Positions 6,849 to 24,268 of a DNA stretch of 43,461 nt are shown one piece after another. The notes beneath the pieces are model-generated. The model did not search any database. It saw only the letters and a list, made by a program, of their open reading frames with translations, and was not told where the DNA came from. This DNA is from a virus, in IMG/VR virus record IMGVR_UViG_3300030222_000030, positions 1 to 43,461 of that record. The stretch is one strand, 5' to 3'. The translations under genes and the position numbers were made by a program. Position 1 is the stretch's first letter. Every line of letters starts with the position of its first letter.

Positions 6849-6871
6849 TTGCTGTCCTTCTTGAATTTGGC

Positions 6872-6898
6872 ACGAAAAAGCCGCCCTCAAGGGGCGGC
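6872..6898 (-). terminator. intrinsic terminator inside the late operon
   Basis: GCCGCCC (6880-6886) pairs with GGGCGGC (6892-6898), loop of five. On the minus strand the stem is followed by TTTTTCGTG. It lies between the tail-tip gene and the tail-fibre gene, so fibre and lysis genes need read-through, antitermination or a new promoter. Confidence 0.75.
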
Positions 6899-6924
6899 CG
6901 GAAATTGCGGAAAATCGGCGTGGA

Positions 6925-9102: not shown

Positions 9103-9512
9103 TACAGGAAGCTCCAGGCCATGTGAAAACGGACCTCGCGGTCCGGCAGGATCAGCCGCCCGCGTGTTTCGGACAGGATCGACCAGCCACCTGCGGCACG
9201 GATCGTGCCGATGGTTTCGCCGGCGAAGGTGATGCACCCGACATCGCCATCAAGCGGCACCTGCACCCGCGCCAGCCCCGCGCCCCGCGCCGACTGGTCG
9301 ATGATCCGCAGCACGCCGCCCGCTTCTTTCAGGAAGGCTTCGGCGCCCGCCCGGTCGCTATAGGCCCCGCGGAACCGCTCGGCCGGATCTGTGCCCGTGG
9401 CAAACTGCACCCAGTTGGCCGGTTCAAGACAGCAATCACGGATGCCCCATTGAAAAAGGCAGCGCTCGCGCGCTGCCTTGAAATAGGCGTTCAATTCGTC
9501 GTCGATCGTCAT
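9102..9512 (-). CDS. DUF6950 / NlpC-P60-like tail protein, 136 aa
   Basis: The motif RDCCLEPANWV (Cys26/Cys27) is the usual start of the catalytic-Cys helix in DUF6950 and NlpC/P60-type phage tail proteins. The rest is short and beta-rich, ending in FHMAWSFL. In tails of this type the enzyme is thought to open peptidoglycan during DNA entry or to process the tail tip. It starts with an ATGA overlap on the DUF2163-like gene and ends one base into the tip gene, the order seen in alphaproteobacterial phage and GTA tails. Confidence 0.72.
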   Translation of the reverse strand: MTIDDELNAYFKAARERCLFQWGIRDCCLEPANWVQFATGTDPAERFRGAYSDRAGAEAFLKEAGGVLRIIDQSARGAGLARVQVPLDGDVGCITFAGETIGTIRAAGGWSILSETRGRLILPDREVRFHMAWSFL

Positions 9513-10105
9513 GCGAGTTGCAGCGGAATCCCAAGTGCCAGCGCGGACACCTGCTTGAAGAGATTGTCATCGACGCCCGGATAGCGGGCCTTCTGATCGG
9601 CTTCTGTATAGCGCCCGAAGGCAGCTTCCGAGCGCGGCCCGAACACCGTCTGCACCAGGAGCGACAAGGTATATCCGGGTGCGCTGCCGTCGATGGTCGC
9701 CCCGAGTGCTTCCGACGATACGCCGCGCATCTGGTAGAAGTTGTTGACCGAAACCGGGCCGACAATCTCCAGGGTGCGCGGGTGCATCAACATCGAATAC
9801 TCGATGCAATAGCGCCCGATCACCTCGTTTTTGACATCCCAGATCATGTCTTGGATGTCCTGCGGCATGCCCCAGACGGAGAATTCGCCGGTCTGGTCTT
9901 CCCCCTTCGGCGAGAACGGGATTTCCGGCCGTTTCAGCTGGCCGCGAAAGCCGATAAAGGTCTTGCCCGCAATCAGCTCGCGGTCGACATTGCCGTTCCA
10001 CACATACATGGTTTCAGAGGCAAAGCGGAATTCCCAGGCCATCGCCTTCAGCGCCCCGCCGGCGCTTTGCAGCAGCGCGATCTGCTCTTCGGTGTATGTC
10101 CCCAT
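9509..10105 (-). CDS. tail protein, DUF2163-like position, 198 aa
   Basis: ATG 10105 overlaps the stop of the upstream gene (TGATG). Residues 20-130 are beta-rich with aromatic residues (AWEFRFASETMYVW; EFSVWGMPQDIQDMIWDV), like the N-terminal domain of distal tail or baseplate-ring proteins. In related phages the gene before the NlpC/P60 protein is DUF2163 or DUF1833-like; family assignment here is by position and general pattern. No enzymatic motif seen. Confidence 0.6.
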   Translation of the reverse strand: MGTYTEEQIALLQSAGGALKAMAWEFRFASETMYVWNGNVDRELIAGKTFIGFRGQLKRPEIPFSPKGEDQTGEFSVWGMPQDIQDMIWDVKNEVIGRYCIEYSMLMHPRTLEIVGPVSVNNFYQMRGVSSEALGATIDGSAPGYTLSLLVQTVFGPRSEAAFGRYTEADQKARYPGVDDNLFKQVSALALGIPLQLA

Positions 10106-10794
10106 CACGCCGAATCCGGGCTGGTGTCTTCGATGAATTGAACGGTGAAATAGCCATAGCGGCCATATTGCAGCTGCCCGGAAAACGCCCTTGTGTCGGC
10201 CAGGCGGCATTTGACAACCGGATAGGTGAATTCGACCTCATCGCGCGGCAAGACCGCTTCCCGCAGCTCGGGCGCGATTTCAAGGACGGCCCGATCGTCG
10301 GTCTGCTCTTCGACGAAGCGCACGGCATATAGGTGCCCGTTGATCGAAAACGCGTGCCCCGGCCGGATCGTGCCGCACTGGACCTTGTCGACCGTCAGGA
10401 ACACGGTCCCGGCAAGCGCCACCGAAGCGGCCAACACGGTCGTGCCGGTCGTGACAAACCCGCTGCCATCGGCGAACGTCGACCCGTCCGAAAAGCCGCC
10501 CGTGGAAGGCTCGCCCGCCTTCGGATAGTTGCCGCGCGGATAGTAGGGCACAAGCACCGGATAGTCCCGCCCGCTCAGCTGCATTTCAAGCCCTTGCCAG
10601 GCGACCAGGTTCTTGGCTTCATTGACCGGAACGTCTGCAAATTGAGGCCGCCAGATGCCGCGCGTTGCAGGCCCGCCATTGTTGAGCCGCCCGGAAAGCG
10701 CCAGGCGGTTGTCCGCCGACGATTGCGGATCAAAGCCGCGGTTCCAGTGACGCGGATTGACAAGGCCGCGCGGCCATTCCAGATAAGTGACCAT
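10105..10794 (-). CDS. tail protein following tape measure, 229 aa
   Basis: Lies two bases after the tape-measure stop and overlaps the next gene by one base. The N-terminus begins with an aromatic, proline-containing segment (TYLEWPRGLVNPRHW). The middle is glycine- and serine-rich (GGFSDGSTFADGSGF) and the rest beta-rich. That fits a distal tail protein or baseplate component. No family named with certainty; position matches the DUF2460/Dit slot of comparable tail modules. Confidence 0.6.
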   Translation of the reverse strand: MVTYLEWPRGLVNPRHWNRGFDPQSSADNRLALSGRLNNGGPATRGIWRPQFADVPVNEAKNLVAWQGLEMQLSGRDYPVLVPYYPRGNYPKAGEPSTGGFSDGSTFADGSGFVTTGTTVLAASVALAGTVFLTVDKVQCGTIRPGHAFSINGHLYAVRFVEEQTDDRAVLEIAPELREAVLPRDEVEFTYPVVKCRLADTRAFSGQLQYGRYGYFTVQFIEDTSPDSA

Positions 10795-10796
10795 CG

Positions 10797-12587
10797 TCAG
10801 ACCGCCTTGCCCTTGTTATGCCGGCTGCCGATCGAGGAAAAATTCTGGCTCATGTCGGTCATCGCCATCTGCCACCCGGCATAAGCGCCCTGCTTCGCGG
10901 CATCGGTAATTTCGCGCGACCCCCGTGCCCCGGAAACATCCACGACCACGGACACCGCGCGCGGGCCGGACGGTGCGTTGCTGTTGCCGGCAACTTTTTT
11001 CAGCGTGTCGTTTGAAACGATCTGCGCCGGCCCGAACACGGGTTCGGGCTTGCCATTCTCGCCGGCGATCCCCCACTCGCCAGGCCCGAGGCGTCCGCCG
11101 TTTTCAAAGAAACCGGCAAAACCGCCGAAGAGGCCGGAAAGGACGCCGCCCAAACCACCACCGCCGCCGCGGCCAAAGCCGCCGGCGCCCTTCATGGTGT
11201 TGCCGAATAAAAGCGCCTGCGCCGTCGTCTCGACAAGCGTTGCCAGGAACCTGTCAAGCGCCGTGTTGCCCGTATCGATCATGCCGGTGACGATGCCAAG
11301 GCCGGACGACAAGACGCTGCTCAGCTGCTGCCCTTGGCGCGTTGCGCCGGTCAGGTTTTCCGTCAGGTTCACCGCCGCGCCCGATGTTTCGCCAAGGACG
11401 CTGGACGTCGCCCGGCGCACGTCGTTGGTCGCCTGACCCGCCGCCGCAACGTCATTCAAAACCTGCTTTTCAGAGTCCAGGGCCGTAAGCAGCGCGTCCC
11501 ATTGCGTGGCATCATAGACCGGCGACCGGTTATCGTTTGCGCCTTTGATCGCCGACAACGCTCCGGAGAGACGGCCCGACAGGTCGACGGTCCCTTCCGG
11601 CTCGCCGCCGAATGTTGAGCCCGTGCGGAACCTCGGCTTCTGATTGCTTGCAAAACCGATACGCCCCTCAAGCAGTGACGTTCCTTCCAGAAAATCGTCT
11701 AGATGCGTCAGCCCGGTCGCCTCGCGGAAGCGGCCTTTGAATTGCTCAAGCTGACCAAACACGTCCGGCATCAAATCCACGAACTCGCGCAGCTCCTTGA
11801 CGTTCAACGCCAGACCTTCATAGAAATCGATCAGAAGCGGCGCGCCGGCGATCAGCGCGGCATTCAATTGTTTGTCGAGCGCATCGGCCGCATTGCCGAG
11901 CCGGTTCTGCATCTCTTCGGCCTGGTCGAGAATGCGCGTTTCGATGATGTTGCCAAGCTGACGGGCTTTTTGACCGCTTTGATCCATGGCGCCGGCGCCA
12001 AGCTCAAGCACCCGGACAAGATCTGCGCCGCGCTGTCCGAACGCGGCTTTAACCAGCGCCGCCCGGTCCTCCGCATTGGAAGCCTGCGCAACCGCATTTG
12101 CATAAAGCCGCAGGCGCTGCTCGGCGCTTTCCGTGCTCAGGATCATGTCGAGCAAGGCCGGATCGATCCGGTTCAACTCGGTGTAGAGCGCGCCCGACCC
12201 GTTCTTCGCTTCGCCAACCGCGATTGTGAACTTGCGCAAGGCGTTATCCAGGACGCCGACATCGACCGACGCTTCGCCCGCCATGAAGGCAAGCGTTTGA
12301 TAGAATTCGCCATCCAGGCCGTTTTGGCGGGCAACCTTGGCAATCCGGTCAAAGTCGGCGAGACCCTGCTTTAACTTCAGGATGGCGGCGGAAAAACTTG
12401 CGATACCAACCCCGGCAGCGAGCGCGGATTTACCGATGCCGGCGATACTGGCCGACGCCATCTTGATATCGGCATTCATCAGGTTTGCCGCGCGGCGCGT
12501 GTCGCCGATGTTGCGGCGCGCCGAACGGAAAGCCGGACCGGACTGGTCGCGGCCCTTGATATCGAAGGCAAGCGGGGGAATGGTCAT
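10797..12587 (-). CDS. tail tape measure protein, 596 aa
   Basis: Long, helical, Ala/Leu-rich protein with a hydrophobic segment near residues 45-70, a heptad-rich body, and near residues 465-500 a glycine- and phenylalanine-rich hydrophobic stretch (GRGGGGGLGGVLSGLFGGF) typical of lambda-family tape measures. Its start overlaps the frameshifted chaperone product as ATGA. At about 0.15 nm per residue for a helix it predicts a siphovirus tail near 90 nm (inference), shorter than lambda. It occupies the tail lumen and is ejected with DNA. Confidence 0.85.
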   Translation of the reverse strand: MTIPPLAFDIKGRDQSGPAFRSARRNIGDTRRAANLMNADIKMASASIAGIGKSALAAGVGIASFSAAILKLKQGLADFDRIAKVARQNGLDGEFYQTLAFMAGEASVDVGVLDNALRKFTIAVGEAKNGSGALYTELNRIDPALLDMILSTESAEQRLRLYANAVAQASNAEDRAALVKAAFGQRGADLVRVLELGAGAMDQSGQKARQLGNIIETRILDQAEEMQNRLGNAADALDKQLNAALIAGAPLLIDFYEGLALNVKELREFVDLMPDVFGQLEQFKGRFREATGLTHLDDFLEGTSLLEGRIGFASNQKPRFRTGSTFGGEPEGTVDLSGRLSGALSAIKGANDNRSPVYDATQWDALLTALDSEKQVLNDVAAAGQATNDVRRATSSVLGETSGAAVNLTENLTGATRQGQQLSSVLSSGLGIVTGMIDTGNTALDRFLATLVETTAQALLFGNTMKGAGGFGRGGGGGLGGVLSGLFGGFAGFFENGGRLGPGEWGIAGENGKPEPVFGPAQIVSNDTLKKVAGNSNAPSGPRAVSVVVDVSGARGSREITDAAKQGAYAGWQMAMTDMSQNFSSIGSRHNKGKAV

Positions 12588-13068
12588 TTGGGTTTTGTCT
12601 CAAGCTCGGGCTTGATCCGCGTCAGGTAAATCACCCATTCGCGGAACTCGGTATCGGGCATCGCCTCGATTTCCGATACGGTTTTGTTGAGCCTTTCGGC
12701 CAGCGCGAAAATCAGCGTGCGCCGACCGTTTCTCAGTTTTTTTCCAGGTCCTCGTCAGACGGCCCGGCCAGGATCGACAGCGCGATCCGCGAGACGACGC
12801 TGCTGTCGACCTCATGGGTCAGCCCGTGCCGGTCGTCCGGCGTGAACAGTTTTACACCCTGCTTGTCTTCAGCCTTTTCAAGCAGAACGTCGACCAGCAT
12901 GGACGCGGTCCCGGTATTGCCGGCGTCGTTGACCCGGTCGCGCTGACCAACCGTCATGGGTGACGCATAGACAAGAAACGGGCTGCCAGGCTCACCCCAT
13001 TCGGGAACCTTGATGCACTTACGGCCCAACTCCCGATAGTGGCCCTTGGCCTTGTCCAGGACGCTCAT
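12584..13068 (-). CDS. tail assembly chaperone, -1 frameshift product, about 161 aa
   Basis: Predicted G/GT-type fusion. The first 111 residues are those of the gene at 12733-13068. At the heptamer A-AAA-AAC (12742-12736), just before the stop, ribosomes can slip back one base and continue for 50 more codons to TGA at 12584. The added tail reads LRNGRRTLIFALAERLNKT and onward through EFREWVIYLTRIKP, a plausible folded helical sequence. No good independent start with a ribosome site serves this segment. It ends with an ATGA overlap on the tape-measure start. Lambda and many other siphoviruses make the same pair of products. Confidence 0.75.
12733..13068 (-). CDS. tail assembly chaperone, unshifted product, 111 aa
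   Basis: Lies between tail tube and tape measure, the position of lambda G. ATG 13068 overlaps the tube-gene stop as ATGA. The product has a GQRDRVNDAGN segment and an acidic C-terminus ending LEKN. This family (gpG-like) binds the tape measure and recruits tail-tube subunits. The ratio of this form to the longer frameshifted form is normally critical for tail assembly. The stop codon TGA directly abuts the slippery heptamer. Confidence 0.8.
   Translation of the reverse strand: MSVLDKAKGHYRELGRKCIKVPEWGEPGSPFLVYASPMTVGQRDRVNDAGNTGTASMLVDVLLEKAEDKQGVKLFTPDDRHGLTHEVDSSVVSRIALSILAGPSDEDLEKN
12736..12742 (-). promoter_or_regulatory. programmed -1 frameshift slippery heptamer
   Basis: A AAA AAC in the zero frame of the chaperone gene, immediately followed by the TGA stop. 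It matches the X-XXY-YYZ rule for simultaneous two-tRNA slippage. Seven consecutive A residues precede the C. A stop codon right after the heptamer often raises efficiency in bacteria. No obvious strong stimulatory hairpin was noted within the next 15 bases. Confidence 0.75.
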
Positions 13069-13451
13069 ACGACGGTGCTTTCGGTCAGGGCGCCATTACC
13101 GACAAAGTTGAAGGTGATTGACGACGCGTTGGTGAAATCCTGAGTCCGGTCGATGCTTTCAACCATCGCCGAGCCGGTATGATAGGTCTGCCCCGAAGCG
13201 TTTCCGCCAGAGTAGAGATTGACCGTGACCTCGGCGCCGGGCTGCAGAGCCGTTTGCGCTGCCGACGTCCGCTTGAGCGAACAGGTCAGCGTGCCCGACC
13301 AGCTTTTCGGCGCACCGGCCAGTTTCTTTTCAAATTCATCGCCGACGTCGGTATCATCGGCCAGCGGCGCAGAGATGTTGAGCGCGAAGCTCTTCACCTT
13401 CAATTCATCGCTGCCAATGCTGACATAGCCTTCATTTCCATGAATGGTCAT
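13065..13451 (-). CDS. major tail tube protein, 128 aa
   Basis: Small beta-rich protein with the pattern of siphovirus tail tube proteins: short N-terminus, charged loop (DDTDVGDEFEKKLAG near residues 32-46), a W followed by SGTLTCSLK strand, and a final STITFNF-like strand (SSITFNFVGNG). AGGAG lies eight bases before ATG 13451. It is preceded by a terminator-like hairpin and follows the tail terminator gene, the lambda U-V order. Subunits stack into the hexameric tube around the tape measure. Confidence 0.8.
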   Translation of the reverse strand: MTIHGNEGYVSIGSDELKVKSFALNISAPLADDTDVGDEFEKKLAGAPKSWSGTLTCSLKRTSAAQTALQPGAEVTVNLYSGGNASGQTYHTGSAMVESIDRTQDFTNASSITFNFVGNGALTESTVV

Positions 13452-13471
13452 GGTTTCCGTCTCCTAAGTTG

Positions 13472-13498
13472 ACAAGAAAAAGCCGCCCCTCGGGCGGC
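13472..13498 (-). terminator. intrinsic terminator inside the late operon
   Basis: GCCGCCC (13482-13488) pairs with GGGCGGC (13492-13498) around a three-base loop. On the minus strand it is followed by TTTTTCTTG. It lies between the tail terminator and tail tube genes. Confidence 0.75.
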
Positions 13499-13509
13499 CC
13501 TGTTTGCGG

Positions 13510-13950
13510 CTAAAGCGCCGTCTGCGGATCTTGATCCGTGGTCAAAGCTTCGACTTCAAAGACGAGTGACGCCAAGGCCAAAGCCTTGCGACCTTCGCCG
13601 GAGACCTCGATATCGGTTGTCGAGAGACGCAGATCCTGCGCTACGCCACCGAGTGTAAGATCTGCCGCAAGCGCCGCTTCGGCCTCCGCCGCGAGATCGT
13701 CGGCCGTATTTTCCGCATTGGGCCCGGACGTGTGAACTTCCAGCACCAGGCGCACCAGGCGCTGCACCTCGCGCGGCGAGCCCATTTCTTGAGGCGACGC
13801 GCTTTCGCTTGGTGTGAAGATACGCCACATCGGCAGCTCACCATCTTTTACCGGATGGACACGCTGTTTGTAGATCCGCGACGCCGGCACGGTGCCACCG
13901 GCAAGCGCTGTTTCAGCAGCATCGCGGATTTGTTGCCTGATATGTGCCAT
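13510..13950 (-). CDS. tail terminator protein (gpU-like), 146 aa
   Basis: N-terminal helix with MAHIRQQIRDAAETALAG, then strands and a second long helix rich in Ala/Glu (about residues 78-97), the layout of gpU-type tail terminators. It overlaps the head-tail joiner stop by one base (TGATG) and precedes the tail tube, the lambda order FII-Z-U-V. These proteins form a ring that stops tail growth and docks the tail to the head. Assignment from order and helix pattern. Confidence 0.7.
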   Translation of the reverse strand: MAHIRQQIRDAAETALAGGTVPASRIYKQRVHPVKDGELPMWRIFTPSESASPQEMGSPREVQRLVRLVLEVHTSGPNAENTADDLAAEAEAALAADLTLGGVAQDLRLSTTDIEVSGEGRKALALASLVFEVEALTTDQDPQTAL

Positions 13951-14258
13951 CAGACTTCCTCTAGTCTGAAAACGATCATGGATCTGCCGTCATCCATGGG
14001 GCTTCGCAGAACAAAGTCGACTCCGCCAATCGTTGCCTGGTCCCCATCGGCCAAGCCGTCGGCATCCGACCTTGAGATCCGAAGCGTTGTCGCCGCCGTG
14101 ACCAAGCCCTCAAACTCTTCACCCGGCAACACGATCTGATCGTTTTCACGAAAGATACCGGGAACAGTCTTGGCGCCCGCACTCGTCTGAATGGTGAACT
14201 CGGCATCACCACCGAAGACACCGACAAACACAGCGCCAAGACCATCGAAGAGGCTCAT
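13950..14258 (-). CDS. head-tail joining protein (FII-like), 102 aa
   Basis: Short beta-rich protein with SRSDADGLADGDQATIGGVDFVLRS, typical of small phage head-tail connectors that carry a G-D-x-v-x-i-x-G-x-x-y/f pattern. ATG 14258 follows AGGG. It lies between the DUF2190 gene and the tail terminator. It should bind the head neck and form the site for tail docking. No catalytic residues. Confidence 0.75.
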   Translation of the reverse strand: MSLFDGLGAVFVGVFGGDAEFTIQTSAGAKTVPGIFRENDQIVLPGEEFEGLVTAATTLRISRSDADGLADGDQATIGGVDFVLRSPMDDGRSMIVFRLEEV

Positions 14259-14267
14259 TTCGCGGCC

Positions 14268-14597
14268 CTAGAACGACTGGTTCAGCCGGACCGTGCCGGC
14301 CTCGTCGCCGCTTGCTGCGACTGCCAGGGCAACACCGATCAAGGTGTTGCCCGACGCGGTCGTCGTGCAGTTCTTGTTGGTGTCGTTCCAATAGAGTTTG
14401 GCTCCGACCGTCCAGGCCTGCCCGGTAGCCTTCGGCAAGGTGAAAACGCCCGACGTTTTCAACTGCACCGCGTTGCCGCTTGTGGCGGCATCGACAGCGA
14501 CGCCGAAGAGCGAGCCGACCAGCGCGCCGCCACCGGACGCGACATCGTAGGGAGCGGCGACCGAAACGGTATCGCCGTCCTGAATGAAATTCTTCAT
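14268..14597 (-). CDS. DUF2190 family protein (capsid-associated), 109 aa
   Basis: DUF2190-type pattern: QDGDTVSVAAPYDVASGGGALVG near the N-terminus, GVAVDAATSGNAVQL, a TGQAWTVGAKLYWNDTN segment, and final IGVALAVAASGDEAGTVRLN. Members are encoded next to capsid genes and are thought to decorate or stabilise the shell. It sits right after the protease/capsid gene, separated by a terminator, where lambda D lies. TAG stop at 14268, ten bases before the joiner start. Confidence 0.85.
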   Translation of the reverse strand: MKNFIQDGDTVSVAAPYDVASGGGALVGSLFGVAVDAATSGNAVQLKTSGVFTLPKATGQAWTVGAKLYWNDTNKNCTTTASGNTLIGVALAVAASGDEAGTVRLNQSF

Positions 14598-14627
14598 GAC
14601 AAGTTTCCTTCGTTGGAGAAGTCAGGG

Positions 14628-14655
14628 CACGAAAAAGGCGGCTCTTACGCCGCCT
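14628..14655 (-). terminator. intrinsic terminator inside the late operon
   Basis: AGGCGGC (14636-14642) pairs with GCCGCCT (14649-14655), loop TCTTAC. On the minus strand it is followed by TTTTTCGTG. It lies between capsid and DUF2190 genes; the other side also has TGTTTT. Confidence 0.75.
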
Positions 14656-14684
14656 GTTTTCGCTTTGCCGAGTGCGCTGGAAGT

Positions 14685-16742
14685 TTACGCGCCGGCGTTC
14701 TTGTAGAGGCCTTCCCAGGCCAGCGCCTTAGCGGCGGCGTCCATGCGCACCTTGAATTCGGTGCCGTCGATGCTCCAGCCGTCGCGCTGTTCAAGCGTCG
14801 GCGACTGCTGACCGTCAAGATAGGCAACCTCGATCGTGTCGGTCGCATTCGGATCGGCCGCCAGGTACCAGGCGGTTGCAGAGGCTTCATCGAGCCGCGC
14901 ATCCATGATCGGCTCGATTGCCCCGCGCACCGTATTGGCGGCACGTGTGGTCTTCGACGGATCATATTCCGAATTCAGGACCTGCAGCACCGTTTCGCGC
15001 AAAGCGAACGGGAAGAGGCCAAAGCGCGGCATGATGTTGGATGCGACGGCGTTTTTGTCGCGATCCTTCTGCTTTGCCATGGCTGTAATGCCGGCGTTGA
15101 TCGTCGCACCGCTCGGCGCAGCACCGGAGCCCGCAAGGTTGTCATGATCAGCGTGGAACAGAGCCGTGCTATCGCCCATGGTTGGGTTGCTCGTCAGGAC
15201 CGCCCAAACAAGATTGCCAACGGTGCGGATGGCCGCACGGCCCATTTTCATCGGCGTGCGGGTGAAGGCGTCCATATCATCGTTGATGATCGCCTGACGG
15301 GTGATGCTGAACAGCCTGCCGTAGGTCGCAAGGACGATCTGTTCGGCGTGGTCGCCATAACTGCCATACTTGTATTCACCGCCCGCAGGAACTTCGGCAA
15401 GCGACGGGAAGGCGCCGGTCCCGACCCGGCTGGCCGGCTTGAAATCGGACAACGTGCCGGCATAGGTCCACTGCTGGAACGTCTCGTTTGCTTCCGCAAA
15501 CCCGCGCAACATGGATTTGTTGGCAACATTGGCAAGGATTTCGCCAAAGTCGGACGTGCCATGCATGCCGCCCGCCATTGTCGGCACGAAGAACATGCCG
15601 GCAAGCTCCATGCGGTTCATTGCGGCCGGTGTCAGGTTCCGCACATTCAGCGACGCACGCCCCATTTCCATCAGGGACATGGCCGTGAATTCGTTGCGTT
15701 CTCCGCCATCCATTCCAGCGCGAGCAAGCAAGGCTTTTTCAGCCCCCTCGCGGAACTTGTCGACGCCGTCAAGCGTTACCCGGCCGGGAGCGGCGTTGAT
15801 CGTCTCGTCGCCGCTTCGCATCTCCGCGATCTTGTCGACGATCCGTGCGTTTGCTTGCGCCACGGTGACACCTTCGGTGACGAGTTCTTCGGCAAAATCC
15901 GTCGCCAGGCGGGCCGCGCGTACCTGCGTGAAGATGCCGCTTACACGGTCCCTCTCCGCAGCCTGCGCTTCCAAGCGCGCCGCATCGACAGCTGCCGTAT
16001 CGACAGCCAGCGGGGTTGCAGCTTCCGGCTCCGGCGGCGTGGGCGCCGAGGGTGCCGGTGATTTCTTGGTAGGCATTTCCGGTTTCCTTTCCTTCAGGTC
16101 CGCGGCACACATGACCGCATTCATCGGCACGCCCTCGGCTTGCCAATTTCTGGTGAACTCCAGAAGTTTTTCCGGAGCATTTTGATAGGTTGAATAGTTG
16201 AAGACAGCAGGCGCAGCGTCTTCCGCGTCACTATCCGTCACCGCTTCGGTCGCAAAGCCGGCGGCGACGGCATCTTCGCCGTTCATCCAGGTTGTCGCCT
16301 TCATCAGGTCCCGGATTTCGGCTTCGGGCTTGCCCGCCCGCGCCGCATAGATCCGCGCCCATGTGTCGGCCATGTAATCAAGATGGTCCGCTGCGTTGCG
16401 GTGCTCTTCCGCAGTGCCATAGGTCAGGCCGGACGGATCGTGAATCATCATCAGCGAACCGGGCAGCATTCGGATTTCATCACCTGCCATTGCGATAACG
16501 GACGCAGCAGACGCGGCCATGCCTTCGATCTGGATCGTGACGCGGCCAGGATAGAGTGAAAGCGCGTTGAAGATCGCGACCCCTTCCGCTGCGATCCCAC
16601 CGTATGAATTCAGGCGCACGTTCAATTGCTCCTGATCCAGCTCCGGCAGCGCCTCAAGAACGGCCCGCGCCGTAAAACCTTCCCAGTCATCGCCCACGAA
16701 CCCGTAAAGGACCAGGTCGCCGTCAATCACGATTTCAGGCAT
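14685..16742 (-). CDS. fused prohead protease (ClpP-like) and major capsid protein, 685 aa
   Basis: ATG 16742 overlaps the portal stop by eight bases. Residues 1-170 are an S14/ClpP-like protease: GMAAS with Ser78, IHDPSG with His101. A Pro/Ala/Thr linker (about 222-262) and a helical scaffold-like stretch (262-330) follow. From about residue 330 to the end comes an HK97-fold-type major capsid protein (VPTMAGGMHGTSDFGEIL; GRLFSITRQAIINDDMDAF). The protease would cut itself and the scaffold from the shell. Such fusions are known in Mu-like and some lambda-like phages. Usually the two are separate genes. Confidence 0.85.
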   Translation of the reverse strand: MPEIVIDGDLVLYGFVGDDWEGFTARAVLEALPELDQEQLNVRLNSYGGIAAEGVAIFNALSLYPGRVTIQIEGMAASAASVIAMAGDEIRMLPGSLMMIHDPSGLTYGTAEEHRNAADHLDYMADTWARIYAARAGKPEAEIRDLMKATTWMNGEDAVAAGFATEAVTDSDAEDAAPAVFNYSTYQNAPEKLLEFTRNWQAEGVPMNAVMCAADLKERKPEMPTKKSPAPSAPTPPEPEAATPLAVDTAAVDAARLEAQAAERDRVSGIFTQVRAARLATDFAEELVTEGVTVAQANARIVDKIAEMRSGDETINAAPGRVTLDGVDKFREGAEKALLARAGMDGGERNEFTAMSLMEMGRASLNVRNLTPAAMNRMELAGMFFVPTMAGGMHGTSDFGEILANVANKSMLRGFAEANETFQQWTYAGTLSDFKPASRVGTGAFPSLAEVPAGGEYKYGSYGDHAEQIVLATYGRLFSITRQAIINDDMDAFTRTPMKMGRAAIRTVGNLVWAVLTSNPTMGDSTALFHADHDNLAGSGAAPSGATINAGITAMAKQKDRDKNAVASNIMPRFGLFPFALRETVLQVLNSEYDPSKTTRAANTVRGAIEPIMDARLDEASATAWYLAADPNATDTIEVAYLDGQQSPTLEQRDGWSIDGTEFKVRMDAAAKALAWEGLYKNAGA

Positions 16743-18270
16743 CTTCGTTTTCCTCTTCCATGTTCTCAGTGTCTTCGTCCTCGGGAATATCCGGCACGTT
16801 GGCCGGCGTCTCCGGCCGCGGCGGGGACGACGCGGCGCCGGCATCACTGTCAAAAACCAAGCCCGCGTCATTGGCGGCCGCACGCTCCGCGATGATTTCC
16901 GCTTCGACGACCTCCGGGTCGTACCCGAGTTGACGGATTTTCTGCCGGCGCGAGGAAAGACCGGCCTTGATTTCGTCGCGCATGGCCGGCACTTCCTTCG
17001 TCGGATCGACCAGGGCACGCCGTTGCGGCGTCCAGCCCAATTCAAAGGGCTCACTCGAACCTGTCGCCAACGCGACAGCGTCCTGCGTCCAGCGGGCCAG
17101 ACCCTGACAGAATTGCGGGATCATCATCAGCCATTGCCAGGCGTTGACGTTGTTATCCATATCGAGGCGCCCCATGCGCCCCGACGTGAAATTCACCTGC
17201 TTCAGGTCGCCGGATATGGATTCGTAGGTGATGCCCAAACCAATCGCGATTTTTCGAATGTTCGCTTTTGTATGGTCGACGTAGCCCCCCACATCGGGCG
17301 GGTCTGCAAACTCGACACGACGGCCGCCGGCAAGGTACTTGATCAGACCAGGCGCAAGCTGCATGCCGACAGACGGATCGTCCGGGCCTCCGCTGCCGGT
17401 CGGGCTCGGCTCGCCTGCGCCATTGTCCGGATCGTAAATAAAGGCAGCAAAACAGGCGGCGATTTTCTGCCGCATCAATTGTGCGTCCTCATAGTCTGCC
17501 AGGTCCTGCATGGTCAGGAGAACGGGAGCCAGCCAGGGCACGCCCCGTACCTGCCCCGGACGGTCACGGCGAAAAACATGGATGACATCACGGGCGAGAA
17601 CACGCTTTGACACGGGCAAGGCGAAAGTCGACGTGCTGGCCGGATGCTCACTGAACAGCCAATAGGCAACACGCTTGCCCCGCAGATCGAATTCAACCCC
17701 TTGCACCGCGCGATTGCCATTCGGCAGCGTCCCGTCTTTCGACGTATCCAGATAGTCCGCCTCCAGGATCTGGATCTGAAACGGCAACGACAGGTCGTCG
17801 CTGGCACGCCGGTACCGGCGCCGGACAAGCACCTCGCCGTCCGAAACGACGGCTTTCATGATCAAGGACTGAAGCCCGTAGAGATTGCCGCAGCCATCCG
17901 CATCGATGTCGGTAGAATCGAAATGTGCTGTGATCAGCGCATTGATTTCGGCTTTCCTGCTTTCTCGTTTGGCATCAACATTCGGGATGATGCCGGCGCC
18001 AATAACGGCGCCGTCGATGATCGACTGACCGCGCGCCGCGTAAGGATTGTTCCGGATCGCATCCCGGCTGACATCGCGCAAGCGCCCAAGCTGCCCGCGC
18101 TGCGCCCCTTGTGCATCTGTCGAGACCGCCCGCCAACCTGCCGTGCGCCGGGACCGGGAAGCGGCTTCATAATGCATACCGGCAAGAGCGGCCCTCGCCC
18201 GTGCCCGACGCAGTCCGGCCTGCGGACTGAATACACCGACCAGGCGATCAAGAAGGGTTTGCCTGGCCAC
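16735..18270 (-). CDS. portal protein (lambda gpB family), GTG start, 511 aa
   Basis: Starts at GTG 18270 with GAGGT upstream. The basic N-terminus (RRARARAAL) leads to residues ARGQSIIDGAVIGAGI and a long central domain with HVFRRDRPGQVRGVPWLAPVL, the hallmark of lambda-family portals. A C-terminal acidic tail ends the protein. Twelve copies form the DNA entry/exit ring and dock the terminase. It lies between gpW-like and capsid genes, as in lambda. Confidence 0.9.
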   Translation of the reverse strand: MARQTLLDRLVGVFSPQAGLRRARARAALAGMHYEAASRSRRTAGWRAVSTDAQGAQRGQLGRLRDVSRDAIRNNPYAARGQSIIDGAVIGAGIIPNVDAKRESRKAEINALITAHFDSTDIDADGCGNLYGLQSLIMKAVVSDGEVLVRRRYRRASDDLSLPFQIQILEADYLDTSKDGTLPNGNRAVQGVEFDLRGKRVAYWLFSEHPASTSTFALPVSKRVLARDVIHVFRRDRPGQVRGVPWLAPVLLTMQDLADYEDAQLMRQKIAACFAAFIYDPDNGAGEPSPTGSGGPDDPSVGMQLAPGLIKYLAGGRRVEFADPPDVGGYVDHTKANIRKIAIGLGITYESISGDLKQVNFTSGRMGRLDMDNNVNAWQWLMMIPQFCQGLARWTQDAVALATGSSEPFELGWTPQRRALVDPTKEVPAMRDEIKAGLSSRRQKIRQLGYDPEVVEAEIIAERAAANDAGLVFDSDAGAASSPPRPETPANVPDIPEDEDTENMEEENEDA

Positions 18271-18273
18271 TGG

Positions 18274-18480
18274 TCAGACCTCGCGCACGAATGTCGGGAA
18301 CAGGTTTTTGTCCCGCGTGCCAAGCCCGAGTTCCGCGCGCATTTGCGCGCGCAGGTTCTGCATTTCAGACAGCGAATTGTACGTAACGCTTTCGCCGTTA
18401 TAGCTGACAGTGCGCACTCCGCGCGCGATCGCAGCTTCCAGCTTCTCAAGTTGTTCGGTCGTAAATGCCATCAAAGCCAT
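18274..18480 (-). CDS. head-tail joining protein gpW family, 68 aa
   Basis: Small alpha/beta protein with the gpW layout: two short helices around a beta hairpin (VRTVSYNGESVTYNS), then LSEMQNLRAQMRAELG. gpW plugs the portal ring and is needed for tail attachment. Two starts are possible: ATG 18480, inside the terminase end, or ATG 18471, which touches the terminase stop as TGATG; the second gives a 65-residue product. Four bases separate its stop from the portal start. Confidence 0.8.
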   Translation of the reverse strand: MALMAFTTEQLEKLEAAIARGVRTVSYNGESVTYNSLSEMQNLRAQMRAELGLGTRDKNLFPTFVREV

Positions 18481-20606
18481 CCGTCACGTTGAGGAATCCA
18501 GCCTGCCCCCGGCTGGGAATGAGGGGCGCTCGTTTGCGCGTTCGCTGCCGCCGGCCCAGGTGTTGGCGCGGGGTCGGGCTTTGCCCCCTCGATCGGCGCG
18601 GCGAAGCTGTTGAATTCGGGTGCCGCAGCCCAGTCGGGCGGGTTTTCCCAATCGATGCGCTCGACGCCAAGCACAAGGGCCAGCGCAAGTGAATAGACGG
18701 CAAGGTCAAGCGCTTCATTGCGCTTTTGCCCCTGCTTGAGCTCAAACCCCTTCGCCGTCCGCCGTTCCGCGCAAAGCTCTTCGAACACCTGGTCCGGCAG
18801 AGCGTCCGACAGGTGATAAGCGCCGCTGCCGGCATCCTTGCGAGACAGGCTTGTCAGGATTTCCGACTTCAGTTTCCAGGTGCCGACTTGAATGATCGTC
18901 AGATCACTCCGGCCCTTCCGGCGTTTGCCGCTTTCCTTGCGCGGCTCCGTTTCGACCGCGCGATCGCGCTCCCAACCCGGGCGCCCCTTGATCAAGTGAA
19001 CACGGCGCCCGAGACCGTCTTTCTTGGCTTTCCGATAAAACGCATAGGCTTTCTCGGTAACGCCATCTTCACCGCCCGTGTCCACCGCCAGGGCCGCAGG
19101 TTTCAGAGACATGCCGCTGCCGGCGACCGGAAAGGACACCTCAAGAAGATCACGCAAGGCCTGCCAGTCTTCAGCGTAGCGCGCCGGGTCGATGGCGCGC
19201 TTTTCCGCGCCAGGCGCATCGGCCGGCGGCTCATGGATGTCGCGCCGCTCGATAAGCCAACGCTCCTTGTTCTCGCCATAGGCTTCGAATTGAACGACGA
19301 AGCGGCCCTTTTGAACATCGACAACAACCAGAATGAACCGGGTTCCAGCTGGAGCGACATTGAGCGGGTACCGTTCCGCGCGGTCTTTCAGGGACTGGAC
19401 AGTGATATCGGACCCGGTACCGAGCGACCGCGGCTTGTGCGGGTGGCCCTGATCGACATTTACGGTTGTCTTCAGACTGGTTTCGTCGCCCGTCCGTTCA
19501 AACTCTTCGACCGCCTGCAGGTACTTTGTCACCAGCTCCGCCCATGACTGAAACGCGGCCGCCGGCCCCTTGAGCCAATACGAAACAATCTCGGTTTCAC
19601 GGACGCGGTCATCATCGATCGGCACCAGCTCACCGTCCGCCGTTTCGTGAAGCCAAACACCCCCGATATTGAGATCGCGCTTGCTCTTGGCCGGGAGAGC
19701 GACGCCGCAATGCGGGCACATCAACTCCGCTTCGCGTCCACGCTCCGCCGGGGTGCCGGACTTCGGAAAGACCAGGAGTTTGAAGTCCGGTTCAAAACGT
19801 TTGCCGCAATCGGGACAGGTCCAATACCAGCGCCCTCGTGTGCCGCGATTGTAAATTGCAAGAATGCCGCTGGTCGGCGGAGCCAGGTGCGGGAATTCCG
19901 GGTTCGGCTTCCAGTCTTCATCCATCAGCAATCGGCCAGGAGAGGATTCTGCGATGGTCTTGCCGCGAGACCCGAATGTCTGGGTACGCTTGAAGGCCAG
20001 GTCGAAAGGGTTTCCTTCCCCGTCGATATCTTCCGGCATGCGGTCATAATCGGTCAGCAACATGATCGGAATATCAGACGACGAAAACTTGCTGATCACC
20101 GGCCAACCAATGTCCAGGCGCATGTTGCCGAGATACCGCTTGTCATAGATCGTATCGGCGTTGCGCCCGCTTGCCTTGCGCTCAGCCAGAGAAGGACAAT
20201 TCCGGATCATGGAGTCGAGCTTTTCCAGCGAGAATTCGCGCGCGGCGCCTTGGTCCATCTGCACAACCCGCATTCGTACCGGGTCGCATTGAATCCCCTG
20301 CCCGATCTTGTTCATGATCAGGCCTTCCGTTTTTGCCGTTCGGGCCGGACCGGCAAACCCGATTGCCTTGAACAGACGAGACGTCGCCATGGTCGCCGGT
20401 TCCATCATGTAAGGAACGACGTCATTGCGCCACGGCACTTTCTGCCCGTTGTCCATAAGCTTGCGCTCCGCCGCGGCCCACTCGGGCACGGTCTGGCGCT
20501 CCAGCGGCGCGATCGAAGGCAGTGCAGCGGCCAGGCAGTCGACCGCTTTGGAATACTCCGGCGGGCGCCAGCCATGGGGGCGCGGCGGCAAGCTGTGTGC
20601 GTTCAT
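18471..20606 (-). CDS. terminase large subunit (gpA family), 711 aa
   Basis: The N-terminal ATPase region has a Walker-A-like FAGPARTAKTEG (residues 84-95), in which Ala91 replaces the usual Gly. A Cys4 zinc-ribbon-like element (TCPDCG and MCPHCG) lies in the middle and nuclease-like acidic residues follow (VVVDVQKGRF; AVDTGG). The gpA-type enzyme cuts concatemeric DNA and pumps it into the head through the portal. ATG 20606 lies four bases after the small-subunit stop; an earlier in-frame start at 20654 would overlap it more. The C-terminus carries Pro/Ala-rich sequence. Confidence 0.88.
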   Translation of the reverse strand: MNAHSLPPRPHGWRPPEYSKAVDCLAAALPSIAPLERQTVPEWAAAERKLMDNGQKVPWRNDVVPYMMEPATMATSRLFKAIGFAGPARTAKTEGLIMNKIGQGIQCDPVRMRVVQMDQGAAREFSLEKLDSMIRNCPSLAERKASGRNADTIYDKRYLGNMRLDIGWPVISKFSSSDIPIMLLTDYDRMPEDIDGEGNPFDLAFKRTQTFGSRGKTIAESSPGRLLMDEDWKPNPEFPHLAPPTSGILAIYNRGTRGRWYWTCPDCGKRFEPDFKLLVFPKSGTPAERGREAELMCPHCGVALPAKSKRDLNIGGVWLHETADGELVPIDDDRVRETEIVSYWLKGPAAAFQSWAELVTKYLQAVEEFERTGDETSLKTTVNVDQGHPHKPRSLGTGSDITVQSLKDRAERYPLNVAPAGTRFILVVVDVQKGRFVVQFEAYGENKERWLIERRDIHEPPADAPGAEKRAIDPARYAEDWQALRDLLEVSFPVAGSGMSLKPAALAVDTGGEDGVTEKAYAFYRKAKKDGLGRRVHLIKGRPGWERDRAVETEPRKESGKRRKGRSDLTIIQVGTWKLKSEILTSLSRKDAGSGAYHLSDALPDQVFEELCAERRTAKGFELKQGQKRNEALDLAVYSLALALVLGVERIDWENPPDWAAAPEFNSFAAPIEGAKPDPAPTPGPAAANAQTSAPHSQPGAGWIPQRDGWL

Positions 20607-20610
20607 GGAT

Positions 20611-21231
20611 TTACTCGGCGGCTTCGGCCATGGGCGCAGCGGACACGCCGACATAGTCGGAAAGCGTCAGGTGCAATTCCCGCAACAGATCATCGCACGC
20701 GACAACGGCGTGTTCCGCCTGCCGGCCGGTCAGCCCTGCATCGCGTGAAAGGCGGTCGGGCAGCCCGTTGATCCCGTTGCGGACAAGTGAAAGGACATCG
20801 TCAAGCAAGGCCGCAACTTCCTGTCGTGGCACCAGATCGCCGCGCTCGCGTGCAAGAGCATTGTATTGCCGCTCCACCGCGTAGATCTTCTCGCGTTCGG
20901 AGTGGCTCAACTGCATTTCGCTGTCGTCGGCAGACCCGCCGATCAGCTCCATTTGCAGCTGGCGCACTGCGCGTTCGGCGGCTTCATCCTGCGTGCGGCG
21001 GTCGTCATCGCGGGCACACTTCCAGGCCCAGCAATTCGAAAGCTGAAACTCGAACGCCCGCCCGTTGGTTCCTTCGGTAAGAACGGGCATGCCCGACCGG
21101 CGCCAGCTGTCGATTGTGTTTTCGCTGGTGCCGAACGCCGCCGCCAATTGCGCGCGGTTCAACACCGCGTCCTCGACACTGTCAGGCAGCGGATAGCTTG
21201 TCTTGAGATTTTCGAGGGTGTCGTCAGCCAT
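20611..21231 (-). CDS. terminase small subunit (Nu1-like), 206 aa
   Basis: Residues 25-60 contain a winged-helix/Nu1-type DNA-binding pattern (NRAQLAAAFGTSENTIDSWRRSGMPVL), followed by a helical region (LSHSEREKIYAVERQYNALAR) and a C-terminal helical part that should contact the large subunit. It recognises the packaging site, probably in the non-coding stretch just upstream (21232-21344). It lies four bases before the large-subunit start. Confidence 0.85.
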   Translation of the reverse strand: MADDTLENLKTSYPLPDSVEDAVLNRAQLAAAFGTSENTIDSWRRSGMPVLTEGTNGRAFEFQLSNCWAWKCARDDDRRTQDEAAERAVRQLQMELIGGSADDSEMQLSHSEREKIYAVERQYNALARERGDLVPRQEVAALLDDVLSLVRNGINGLPDRLSRDAGLTGRQAEHAVVACDDLLRELHLTLSDYVGVSAAPMAEAAE

Positions 21232-21344
21232 GGCCTAGAACATCAACATCAACAATAAGCTGCAGCGCTCAGAGAATTCGCACAGCCCAATGTCCCACGG
21301 TCGCGAATTACCCGTGGGCGGCGGCGGTCAGGAAGGACCCGCGG
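21232..21344 (-). other. non-coding gap before terminase genes, candidate packaging (cos/pac) site
   Basis: This 113-base stretch has no gene. It contains the inverted repeat CCCACGG (21294-21300) / CCGTGGG (21312-21318) with an 11-base loop, next to a GGCGGCGGCGG run. Lambda-type phages with a Nu1/gpA terminase have cos just upstream of the small-subunit gene, and the lambda overhang is also a GGGCGGCG-type sequence. Here that run is on the strand opposite to the terminase genes. Likeness and position only; a promoter or RNA hairpin are alternatives. Confidence 0.35.
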
Positions 21345-21938
21345 TTACTTTGCGGTCCTTAGCGCGTGGGTCATGCCACGGCGCATGTTCGGGAGAAGGC
21401 GGCGCTTGGCCGTTGCCAGGGCATCGCGGCCAAAGGTCAGCTGCTTGCGGTATCTCGCCTTCGGTTCGTAAGCGACCAGCAGTTTCGGCGACCCGCCCTT
21501 ACGGCCAGGCCGCTGCCAGATCCCGGCCACCCCCTTGACCGTTCCGGAGAACACGTTCGGTTTCGACAGCAGGCGCTTGATCGCGCCCCGGCTCATGTTG
21601 CCGTAACGATTGAGCCTTGCGTTGACCGGAACCGGAATCGCTATGCTCTTCGGGCGCCGTTCGCCGCCGTCTTCCAGGCGCTGCAAGTACTGCGACTGGA
21701 TCGGCTTGAAGAACACACGGCCGGAAAGGCGGCGCTTGCTCGATCGCTTGACTGCAAGGCCGCGCTTCGTGAAAGGCGTCGGCCTGTCGAGCCTGACGTC
21801 AAGCAACCGCTCTTCGCCGGCCTTCACGTCTTCAAGGGTTTCATTGATCCCGAGCGACATTGCGAACGGCAGCTGCTGTCGCTGGAAGTCGGTCAATGAA
21901 CGCTCGAAGCGGTCAATGTTGTGATCGATAGAGAACAT
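21345..21938 (-). CDS. hypothetical phage protein at the head of the late operon, 195 aa
   Basis: Starts at ATG 21938, 10 bases after the terminator T-run, in the gap left by the NusG-like gene. The product is strongly basic (many Arg/Lys), with a helical N-terminus (IDHNIDRFERSLTDFQRQQ) and later beta-rich sequence, and has no cysteine cluster or membrane segment. Its shape recalls gpZ-type minor tail proteins, but there is no firm family. As first late gene before terminase it may be a packaging, minor tail or nucleic-acid-binding protein. Confidence 0.6.
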   Translation of the reverse strand: MFSIDHNIDRFERSLTDFQRQQLPFAMSLGINETLEDVKAGEERLLDVRLDRPTPFTKRGLAVKRSSKRRLSGRVFFKPIQSQYLQRLEDGGERRPKSIAIPVPVNARLNRYGNMSRGAIKRLLSKPNVFSGTVKGVAGIWQRPGRKGGSPKLLVAYEPKARYRKQLTFGRDALATAKRRLLPNMRRGMTHALRTAK

Positions 21939-21947
21939 ATCAGGGCA

Positions 21948-21975
21948 TGAAAAAGGCCCGCATCGTTGCGAGCCT
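21948..21975 (-). terminator. intrinsic terminator between NusG-like gene and late operon
   Basis: On the minus strand AGGCTCGCA pairs with TGCGGGCCT (one G-T wobble; stem bases 21954-21962 and 21967-21975) and is followed by TTTTTCATG. Pairing is better on the minus strand than on the plus, so it stops leftward transcription after the NusG-like gene. Late gene expression must pass it or start after it. Confidence 0.75.
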
Positions 21976-22038
21976 GTCTTACCTATCAGGTGCTTTCGCC
22001 ATAGAAACCCTTCGCACCAACACCGCCAGTATGGCGTT

Positions 22039-22764
22039 TCAGTTGGCTGGGTCCGCCGCCTCAGTCGCTCCGTTTGTGTGGTGAATACTCTCACCCGTGC
22101 CCGAGGGGTCCGACGAATCGTCCTGCACTTTGGATAACTCAGGACGTTTCACAGCGTCAACAGGCACGTCGACCAGCACCTTGCCGATTTTGCTTTCGAA
22201 GGCGCCGTAAACGCGCTGCTTGGCCTCGCTGTAGCCGGTAAACGCGAAGTCGATACCCGACCACACACCCTTGACCAGACCGAGCATGTGCCCCTTGTCC
22301 AGATCCGCCAGCCAGGCAATGAACCCATCCGGCAAAGGCTCGTCTTCAAACGTTCCGTGCGAAACGTCGATCACCTTGCACAAGAGCTCCTTGCGGACGC
22401 GGGCCGGACGGCCACTTTCCCTAAAGCAGACAATGCCTTCCACCCCGTCGCACGCGCGGACATCATCGGCGCACTGTCCCTTGCTGCGGTCGATGCCGGC
22501 GAACAGATAGCGGGCAAACATCGGCCGCTTCACGGTGTAGGTGCCGCCCTTCTTTTTCTTCGTGCTGAGACCATAGGGGCGCTCGACGCACTCCATGGGC
22601 AGATAAGCCAAAAGCCCCTTTGCCATCAGTGCGTCATGCGCCCGCCGCTCGCATTTCGGATTGGTGTGGATAACAATCCACTCGACCGAAGACTGGTTCA
22701 CCAGGGCCTTCAAGAGCTCAAGATTGAACACGATGTCCGGCCGCTTCACCTTCGCCTTGCTCAT
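22039..22764 (-). CDS. NusG/RfaH-like transcription elongation factor, 241 aa
   Basis: NusG N-terminal domain: WIVIHTNPKCERRAHDAL (from residue 29), YLP at 54-56, and RPMFARYLFAGID at 80-92, the segments that contact RNA polymerase. Residues about 156-200 resemble a KOW domain (LGLVKGVWSG, then KVLVDV). Residues 201-241 are a polar tail. NusG paralogues bind the beta' clamp helices and suppress pausing or termination; RfaH-type ones act only at special operons. It is the last gene before a terminator and the late operon, the lambda Q position. It is read from the same tightly overlapped operon as the replication gene (ATGA). Confidence 0.8.
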   Translation of the reverse strand: MSKAKVKRPDIVFNLELLKALVNQSSVEWIVIHTNPKCERRAHDALMAKGLLAYLPMECVERPYGLSTKKKKGGTYTVKRPMFARYLFAGIDRSKGQCADDVRACDGVEGIVCFRESGRPARVRKELLCKVIDVSHGTFEDEPLPDGFIAWLADLDKGHMLGLVKGVWSGIDFAFTGYSEAKQRVYGAFESKIGKVLVDVPVDAVKRPELSKVQDDSSDPSGTGESIHHTNGATEAADPAN

Positions 22765-23984
22765 TCCGCAGCCTGCCTTTCGATGATGGTTTCATAGTCG
22801 GTTCTGAATCGGTCGACCGCCGCGCGCACGGCTTCCAGGGGGCTGGAATAGCGGTCATAGTCTTCCGGCGGCACCGGCATCCAGATCCAGTCCGGGCAAT
22901 CGCTGTCCGGCCCGAGCCAGGGCCAGCCGTTTTCCTTGTGAAGCTGCTTCCAGGCATGCCAAATGCCCGAGCCCTTCGCGACCTCGCCGAACAGCTCGCC
23001 GAACTGGACAAGCGCCGGGTCGGCCGTCACGCCCCTGCGCCGGCGGACCGCGTCTTCGTGCATGGTGTTTACACGCGGCCAGCCGCTGTTTGCCTGCCGT
23101 TCAAGCAACAGGCTCGCCCGGTCAAACGTTCCGTCAGCGCAAAGCTTTTCCTGCGTCACCGACAGCGGCGGTATGTGCCCATAAGGCGCCAACATCAGAT
23201 CGGCGAAGCGGACGGCACCCCAGAGTTTGCCGTAGGGCGGCGCCGTCTCGAAAGCCCTGCCGCCGCCACCCTTCACGGTCTTTTCCGGCAGCTTTTCCCA
23301 GCGTTTCTCCTTGAGATAGACCGAATAACGGCAGATTGCCTGCCGCTTCAAAACCGTTTTGACGTGGTGCACATAGGCCCCCTGCAGGGCGACGGCCTGA
23401 TCGCGTTCGGCTTCGCTCAGAGAGAACCAGGCCTTTTCGGTAGGCTCCGGACTGTCGTCAGCAAAGGTCGGCCAATCCTTGTGCGCTTTCTTCAGCCGAC
23501 GCCTCCACGTCTCGCGGCTGACGGTTTCGGATTTTTCCTCTTCAGCGCTCTCGCGCACGCCCTCTCTCTCATTTACGGGTTCTATTACCCGTTCCCTTAC
23601 ATGGTTAGGCGGCATATTTTGCCGGTTGAAACTGTCGGAATCTGCCGGTTGCTCGGGCACGTTTTCGCCGGTAGAGCTACCGGCATTTTCTGCCGGTTGA
23701 AACTCGTCTTCAAACGCCAGCTTGTAGCGGTTTGAGCCCCGCTTTCCGTTCTCTCGGGCAGCGTCCCAATTGATCAATCCACGCTCGCGCAAGCGGTTCA
23801 GCTGCTCGCGCACCGACCGTTCTTTCAAGTTGGTGTTGTCGCAGATGTAGTCCTGACTTGGAAAACACCCGTAGATCGGGTTGTGACAGTCCGCCAGGAC
23901 CATCAGGACCGCCCATTCCGACGGCTTCATGTCGCGGTGGATCTGCGGCTGATCGAATGCCCATTTGGTCGCCGCGTGGCTCAT
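22761..23984 (-). CDS. phage replication initiator with N-terminal winged helix, 407 aa
   Basis: Residues 15-75 form a HTH_36-type winged helix (MKPSEWAVLMVLADCHN; NLKERSVREQLNRLRERGLI). A low-complexity polar linker (about 95-130) follows, rich in Glu, Asn, Pro and Ser, encoded by an iteron array (23617-23704). The C-terminal half has a helical domain (QGAYVHHVKTVLKRQAICRYSVYLKEKRW) with further conserved-looking aromatic segments. This layout, DNA-binding N-domain, linker holding the origin and C-domain for host replication partners, is that of lambda O. It overlaps the next genes as ATGA at both ends. Confidence 0.75.
   Translation of the reverse strand: MSHAATKWAFDQPQIHRDMKPSEWAVLMVLADCHNPIYGCFPSQDYICDNTNLKERSVREQLNRLRERGLINWDAARENGKRGSNRYKLAFEDEFQPAENAGSSTGENVPEQPADSDSFNRQNMPPNHVRERVIEPVNEREGVRESAEEEKSETVSRETWRRRLKKAHKDWPTFADDSPEPTEKAWFSLSEAERDQAVALQGAYVHHVKTVLKRQAICRYSVYLKEKRWEKLPEKTVKGGGGRAFETAPPYGKLWGAVRFADLMLAPYGHIPPLSVTQEKLCADGTFDRASLLLERQANSGWPRVNTMHEDAVRRRRGVTADPALVQFGELFGEVAKGSGIWHAWKQLHKENGWPWLGPDSDCPDWIWMPVPPEDYDRYSSPLEAVRAAVDRFRTDYETIIERQAAE
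23617..23704. repeat. iteron-like array, candidate replication origin
   Basis: GCCGGTTG or GCCGGTAG occurs at 23621, 23644, 23667 and 23692 on the plus strand, spaced 23, 23 and 25 bases, about two helical turns. Units 1 and 4 extend to GCCGGTTGAAACT. Unit 3 pairs with an inverted copy as GCCGGTAG-AG-CTACCGGC (23667-23684). The array lies in the linker-coding part of the initiator gene, and AT-richer sequence with a small inverted repeat (23575-23592) is next to it. Confidence 0.65.
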
Positions 23985-24268
23985 ACCGTTCCTCCCGCCA
24001 GCTCGCAGGCCTCGGACAGGGTCGCAGCGACCGCGCGCACCCTATGCTGCCGCGCAAGATGCCAAGCCGCGCGCGCCGCGCCCTGAATATCGGCGAACCG
24101 TTCGGCGAATTGCAGCTTGTCAGTCAGGCGGCCGTCAGCCCCGCCGAGAAAACGGACATCATGGAAGCCCATGAAGTCCGGCCAGCACACCACGAAGGGC
24201 GGTCCGGCCCTGTCTGCATCCGATAGCGACGGGACCGGCACAGGGTCGCGCCTGGTCACTTCCATCAT
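23981..24268 (-). CDS. hypothetical protein, 95 aa
   Basis: Overlaps both neighbours as ATGA (24265-24268 and 23981-23984), so its translation is coupled to the winged-helix gene before it and the replication initiator after it. The N-terminus is proline-containing, the middle aromatic (FVVCWPDFMGFHDVRFLGG), the C-terminus helical and Ala/Arg-rich. No family recognised. Because the order is conserved in type (small protein before initiator), a role as helper of replication is possible, but this is inference. Confidence 0.6.
   Translation of the reverse strand: MMEVTRRDPVPVPSLSDADRAGPPFVVCWPDFMGFHDVRFLGGADGRLTDKLQFAERFADIQGAARAAWHLARQHRVRAVAATLSEACELAGGTV

Follow-up and report, generated by a model that had tools for sequence, protein, structure and literature searches.

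The 43,461-base virus record IMG/VR IMGVR_UViG_3300030222_000030, analysed at full length and referred to here as the window, carries a gene for a NusG-family protein at the position that Q occupies in phage lambda, followed by a conserved folded RNA leader and the late genes. We consider it likely that this NusG paralogue and the nascent leader RNA together would drive late transcription through terminators, in the manner of LoaP and not of RfaH recruited at an ops site. Comparison of genomes brought out the parts of this arrangement, their order, the structure of the RNA, its linkage to the protein and the exchange of the two. Antitermination of the late genes by a Q-position NusG-family protein is the best explanation of these comparative data, because the order of NGN gene, promoter, leader, terminator and terminase is conserved, internal terminators lie on the coding strand, and protein and leader are exchanged together.

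The first-pass annotation had described a NusG paralogue as the last gene of the leftward (middle) operon, followed directly by a terminator and then the late operon. This observation was confirmed: the gene (22764-22039, minus strand) closes the operon 3' of the replication-initiation gene (22761-23984), and the stem of the terminator that comes next spans 21975-21954, with TTTTT running to 21949 (Table 1). Its interpretation was partly supported, in that the lambda-Q position and the gene order stood and recruitment of the ops type did not. Both the RNA leader and the promoter had been overlooked in that reading and were found in the follow-up analysis. TerL lay downstream of the NGN gene in 16 of 17 relatives and was of two kinds, gpA and HK97-like; since terminases of two lineages follow, the switch appears to be independent of any single packaging lineage.

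Table 1. Positions of the switch and of its proposed target genes in the window
Feature	Position	Strand	Evidence or detail
Replication initiation protein, immediately upstream of switch	22761..23984	-	PHROG 270, 5.5e-29
NusG-family (NGN + KOW) phage protein, 241 aa	22039..22764	-	Pfam, PDB profile search, AF2, Foldseek
Probable late promoter	22131..22160	-	-35 TTGACG 22160-22155, 18-nt spacer, -10-like TATCCA 22136-22131
Conserved folded RNA leader, ~127 nt	21999..22125	-	22-sequence covariation
Leader intrinsic terminator (tR'-like)	21949..21975	-	terminator scans; 24 nt past leader
Late (head/tail) operon, proposed target	4341..21928	-	PHROGs and Pfam
Minor tail-like protein, start of late operon	within 4341..21928	-	PHROGs and Pfam
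TerS	20611-21231	-	PHROGs and Pfam
TerL, gpA type	18471-20654	-	PHROGs and Pfam
Portal	16735-18270	-	PHROGs and Pfam
Head protease	14685-17054	-	PHROGs and Pfam; late operon continues onwards
Internal late-operon terminator	14636..14655	-	terminator scans
Internal late-operon terminator	13479..13501	-	terminator scans
Internal late-operon terminator, unlisted in first-pass annotation	9457..9478	-	terminator scans
Internal late-operon terminator	6879..6899	-	terminator scans

The gene product matched the Pfam NusG family (3e-13, residues 28-127), the sole Pfam family above cut-off, and gave no match to the lambda Q families (PF03589, PF06530 and PF06323). It also matched PHROG 6386, 'transcription antiterminator' (1e-8). 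The RfaH model TIGR01955 was found at 8e-11, yet its score of 42.1 bits fell below the equivalog cut-off of 144.5, and the UpxY match was sub-threshold only. A PDB search with a profile from nine relatives returned NusG (1e-10) and RfaH (2.6e-9), and the same profile aligned the stand-alone KOW chains 6duq and 2kvq of NusG. The NGN domain lies at about 22683-22384 and the KOW domain at about 22299-22156. The NGN fold was present in the AF2 model (pLDDT 72.8), which comprised NGN plus a beta-barrel KOW with strands at 160-201, and Foldseek matched it to the NGN domains of RfaH and NusG, with a TM of 0.83 by target length and an rmsd of 2.2 A over 105 residues for RfaH in a transcription complex (8pen). 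In this low-depth model, built on a shallow alignment, KOW was predicted as beta and not as the RfaH alpha hairpin. The C-terminal tail (210-241, pLDDT < 50) was predicted to be disordered, and the final ~30 codons share their DNA with the RNA leader. With its NGN domain and C-terminal KOW beta barrel, the phage protein is a specialised paralogue in the NusG/Spt5 superfamily.

The probable late promoter sits inside the 3' end of the NGN gene, and the leader begins 6 nt past its -10-like box. Of 26 leaders, 25 were preceded by TTGAC at a distance of 27-31 nt, the orphan L105 and the decayed L109 among them, and at 18-nt spacing the -10-like A was present in 19 of 25 and T in 17 of 25, the -10 box being weak. 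Judged from the TTGAC box and the -10-like position, the leader would begin at about +1. Within the same genes, V/I/L-D codon pairs read TTGAC in 21 of 21 cases at this site compared to 13 of 69 elsewhere (p 5e-12, uncorrected for kinship). The orphan L105 carries TTGACA 30 nt upstream, free of coding constraint, and the decayed L109 is likewise unconstrained by protein. These results suggest that the TTGAC box is kept beyond protein-coding need. A clean TTGAC was absent from the orphan L100 and from L071. Downstream of 21948, where in the first-pass annotation a strong late promoter would have counted against a NusG-type switch, a sigma70 scan brought up no late promoter, and sigma70-type promoters showed no excess within the late operon. 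In three multi-copy NGN prophage genes (L075, L079 and L080, G026), the leader and the TTGAC box are both lost, with GCTGAT replacing the box and an HNH-like frame directly after.

Directly downstream of the probable promoter lies the leader, which overlaps the last NGN codons in the window. Among the relatives of the protein, the block past the NGN stop is conserved also where the stop falls earlier than in the window, so the block is not conserved as protein. We aligned 22 leader sequences with MAFFT and based the structure largely on how one member (L050) folds, with helix 7 added by eye. The resulting architecture has an outer helix, a first arm of helices 2-4 and a variable hairpin, and a second arm of helices 5-7. 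Standard pairs made up 90.5% of the pair cells, and two-sided changes occurred in 18 of 35 pairs. Cells with two-sided changes numbered 87 in the 22 sequences, compared to 24 in shuffled and no more than 22 in slid controls; in nine sequences less than 72% alike there were 33, compared to 9.7 shuffled and at most 10 slid. Single-sequence folding energies were mostly no better than shuffles, with z-scores near zero for most members, and the structure therefore rests on covariation. Rfam gave no match at gathering in the window and none up to E 1 in L060, L071 and L052, and a Trp_leader match in L003 (E 0.57), the sole candidate there, was rejected as chance. As far as these searches reach, the leader appears to be a new structured RNA class.

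We ran a covariance model of the leader (R1) on 87 genomes of the host family (Stappiaceae, Hyphomicrobiales, as read from Labrenzia sp. DG1229), in which NGN genes were found independently by protein search. The results showed 28 leader matches, of which 23 lay directly after an NGN gene; the remaining five, without an adjacent intact NGN gene, comprised one behind a decayed NGN gene, two orphans and two at 24-26 bits. Conversely, 23 of 29 NGN genes had the leader and 6 were without it. A first DNA pattern scan gave 37 contigs, most of them chance. In a separate pattern scan of viral contigs, blind to proteins, 4 of 80 loci scored as leaders, exactly the 4 that carry the NGN gene. Other genomes of the order added two divergent members (L132, 5e-7; L133, 1e-4), and the model run on 397 order and 385 class genomes, with few candidates scored per genome, returned nothing beyond two known host-family genomes. 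Past the NGN stop at one locus (L140, G285), CTTGACG lies 29 nt before TAGGACGAAC and a leader-like stretch, which has diverged too far to be recognised by model R1.

Distances between NGN proteins and between leaders were correlated (r=0.70, 0/5000), a value that kinship among the sequences can inflate. This correlation is as expected of cognate pairs, and common descent probably also contributes. In one pair of relatives (L002 and L003), the flanks were 97-99% identical on both sides, compared to 62% for the NGN gene and 69% for the leader: the two were swapped together as one cassette.

The late operon contains further intrinsic terminators. The three internal ones named by the first-pass annotation (at 14628, 13472 and 6872) all proved real, and a fourth was added at 9478-9457; all four are strong and stand in gaps between genes. 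Under a strict rule (a stem of at least 7 pairs, then directly at least 4 T), five terminators were found on the late strand (21973, 14655, 13498, 9476 and 6898), compared to 0.55 expected from shuffles; two were found on the opposite strand, one of them the same hairpin read backwards. Applied to 17 relatives over as much as 13 kb beyond the NGN gene, the strict scan counted 35 coding-strand terminators and 7 on the opposite strand. In 11 of these relatives an equivalent of the leader terminator lay 86-206 nt beyond the NGN stop, and in 6 the strict rule found none. A permissive scan over 4000-23999 found 26 terminators compared to 22 in shuffles, no excess, and a looser energy rule (5 vs 6 by strand) did not separate the strands; the strand difference is visible only under the strict rule, with its T run right after the stem. 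Some internal terminators are common in phage late operons without antitermination.

From this arrangement we infer promoter activity, a stop at the leader terminator, RNA binding and processive read-through. The late promoter would fire without the factor, but polymerase would halt at the leader terminator and leave a leader RNA of ~177 nt. Once made, the NGN protein would bind the nascent leader, as their linkage suggests, its NGN domain would dock on the clamp helices of the polymerase, and the protein would stay bound. Polymerase carrying the protein would then run through the terminator of the leader and those inside the late operon, so that this operon would be transcribed. Since the conserved probable promoter lies just upstream of the leader, the switch would act on the leader terminator of a separate late transcript and not only on read-through from the middle operon. 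In the pR'-tR' layout of lambda, which this resembles, a promoter, a short leader and a terminator likewise stand ahead of the late genes.

The linkage data would fit equally well a protein that blocks the leader terminator locally without travelling, the internal terminators being leaky or having promoters of their own, and in the window just 24 nt separate the leader from its terminator. We regard such local attenuation as unlikely, given that NGN is the polymerase-riding domain of NusG and RfaH and that four more terminators lie inside the late operon, with no excess of sigma70-type promoters there. A leader that acts alone on polymerase, with the NGN protein as a general phage elongation helper, has a precedent in the put RNA of HK022, which folds close to its promoter and needs no protein to antiterminate (PMC9378689), and the present leader is both conserved and promoter-proximal. 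This is very improbable in our judgement, as leader and protein are nearly always adjacent, are swapped as a unit and have correlated distances. We give the least credence to the leader being an unrelated phage RNA, such as a small regulatory RNA or a packaging signal, merely beside the NGN gene. Its place between replication and packaging genes is that of cos/pac signals; against this, the terminases that accompany the NGN genes beside it are of two unrelated types, the swap took in the leader and the NGN gene but not the terminase, and the leader has a promoter at its 5' end and usually a terminator at its 3' end.

RfaH-like recruitment through an ops-type DNA site on the non-template strand of the leader region would agree with the close structural match to RfaH and with the GGCGGT at 22027-22022, which the first-pass annotation had taken as a weak match to the ops core. 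The location was right, but this is no ops site, because GGCGGT occurs 37 times on that strand and most relatives read GCGGAGUUGGCGC at this spot, inside a covarying RNA helix. No GCGGTAGC was found near the phage NGN gene, only GGCGGT. Genuine ops-like sites (CACCCG..GCGGTAGC) followed chromosomal RfaH-like genes of the same order and not the phage genes, and KOW was predicted, in a low-depth model, as a beta barrel and not as the RfaH alpha hairpin. We therefore rejected ops-type recruitment on the 37 copies, the variable spot and the covarying helix, and give it hardly any chance. In the chromosomal RfaH-like genes L141, L142, L144, L145, L147, L148, L153 and L156, a conserved CACCCG(N)..GCGGTAGC motif lies 44-81 nt past the NGN stop.

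LoaP, a NusG paralogue of Bacillota and others, is recruited by a leader RNA hairpin and antiterminates long operons, and the phage system resembles it in its specialised NusG paralogue, its long operon studded with intrinsic terminators and its leader RNA (PMC12691694), with recruitment by that RNA proposed for the phage protein. LoaP uses a small UNCG-type hairpin in biosynthesis operons, whereas here a branched leader of ~127 nt, of which such a hairpin is not the conserved core, precedes phage late genes in Alphaproteobacteria. RfaH and chromosomal RfaH-like proteins share the NGN fold (8pen, TM 0.83) and a weak match to the RfaH model; the phage protein differs in falling below the curated RfaH cut-off, in having no ops and a KOW predicted as a beta barrel, and in its large RNA leader. 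Lambda Q and Q21 show the same succession of early operon, antiterminator gene, promoter, short leader, terminator and late genes (PMC7171158), but the protein is unrelated, and Q binds DNA (QBE) at a sigma-dependent pause where a conserved folded RNA is found here. The put RNA of HK022 is likewise a promoter-proximal folded RNA in phage antitermination, but it works without protein on early genes and has ~70 nt and two stems (PMC9378689), whereas the present leader is NGN-linked and precedes late genes. Annotated NusG-like genes of Rhizobium phage RHph_N28_2 and Bradyrhizobium phage ppBjS10J-1 also lie upstream of packaging genes and on their strand; an R1-type leader was not found there, and no function has been described for them.

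RfaH-like genes on prophages receive only passing mention in reviews of NusG paralogues (PMC7593976), and the open-access full-text literature yielded no description of a phage NusG late switch. The superfamilies of the parts are known, and the combination, the RNA class and the phage role are new as far as our searches reach. Processive phage late switches are known mainly as Q-like proteins, and most of the specialised NusG paralogues described so far serve cell-envelope, antibiotic or plasmid operons. If many alphaproteobacterial phages do switch on their late genes through a NusG paralogue and its own large leader RNA, the two fields would be joined. Such a switch would also offer a compact model for RNA-guided NusG loading, with one protein, one ~177-nt leader and one terminator, and a tool for terminator read-through. 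For the new RNA class, a covariance model is already available, as is a hypothesis of its function. A broader reading, which we hold as speculative and rather doubtful, is a phage-specific class of RNA-guided NusG antitermination, in which the large leader RNA evolves together with an NGN protein dedicated to it, the pair forming a late-switch cassette that can be exchanged. Under this reading, orphan leaders, one next to an integrase and an HTH replication gene and one on a small RepA/MobA contig, would borrow the antiterminator of a resident prophage.

One such orphan (L105/L129, G037:C6 ~150951-151080, minus strand) has its own TTGACA box and is followed by a small ORF, an HTH_36 protein and an integrase, with no NGN gene; an NGN prophage lies elsewhere in the same genome, and the orphan is possibly a satellite that borrows its antiterminator. 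The other (L100/L130, G032:C2 5377-5507, plus strand) lies on a 14-kb contig with RepA, ParA, MobA, DUF2513 and an integrase, and no NGN gene was found in that genome. At two further loci (L008, 6545-6650, and L135), for which no further viral contigs were found, another NGN subfamily lies upstream of packaging-type genes, and its gene is followed by a different conserved leader (TTGCAAATnTGCAACCACGCTnCGTGCGT) with a terminator, perhaps a second leader class.
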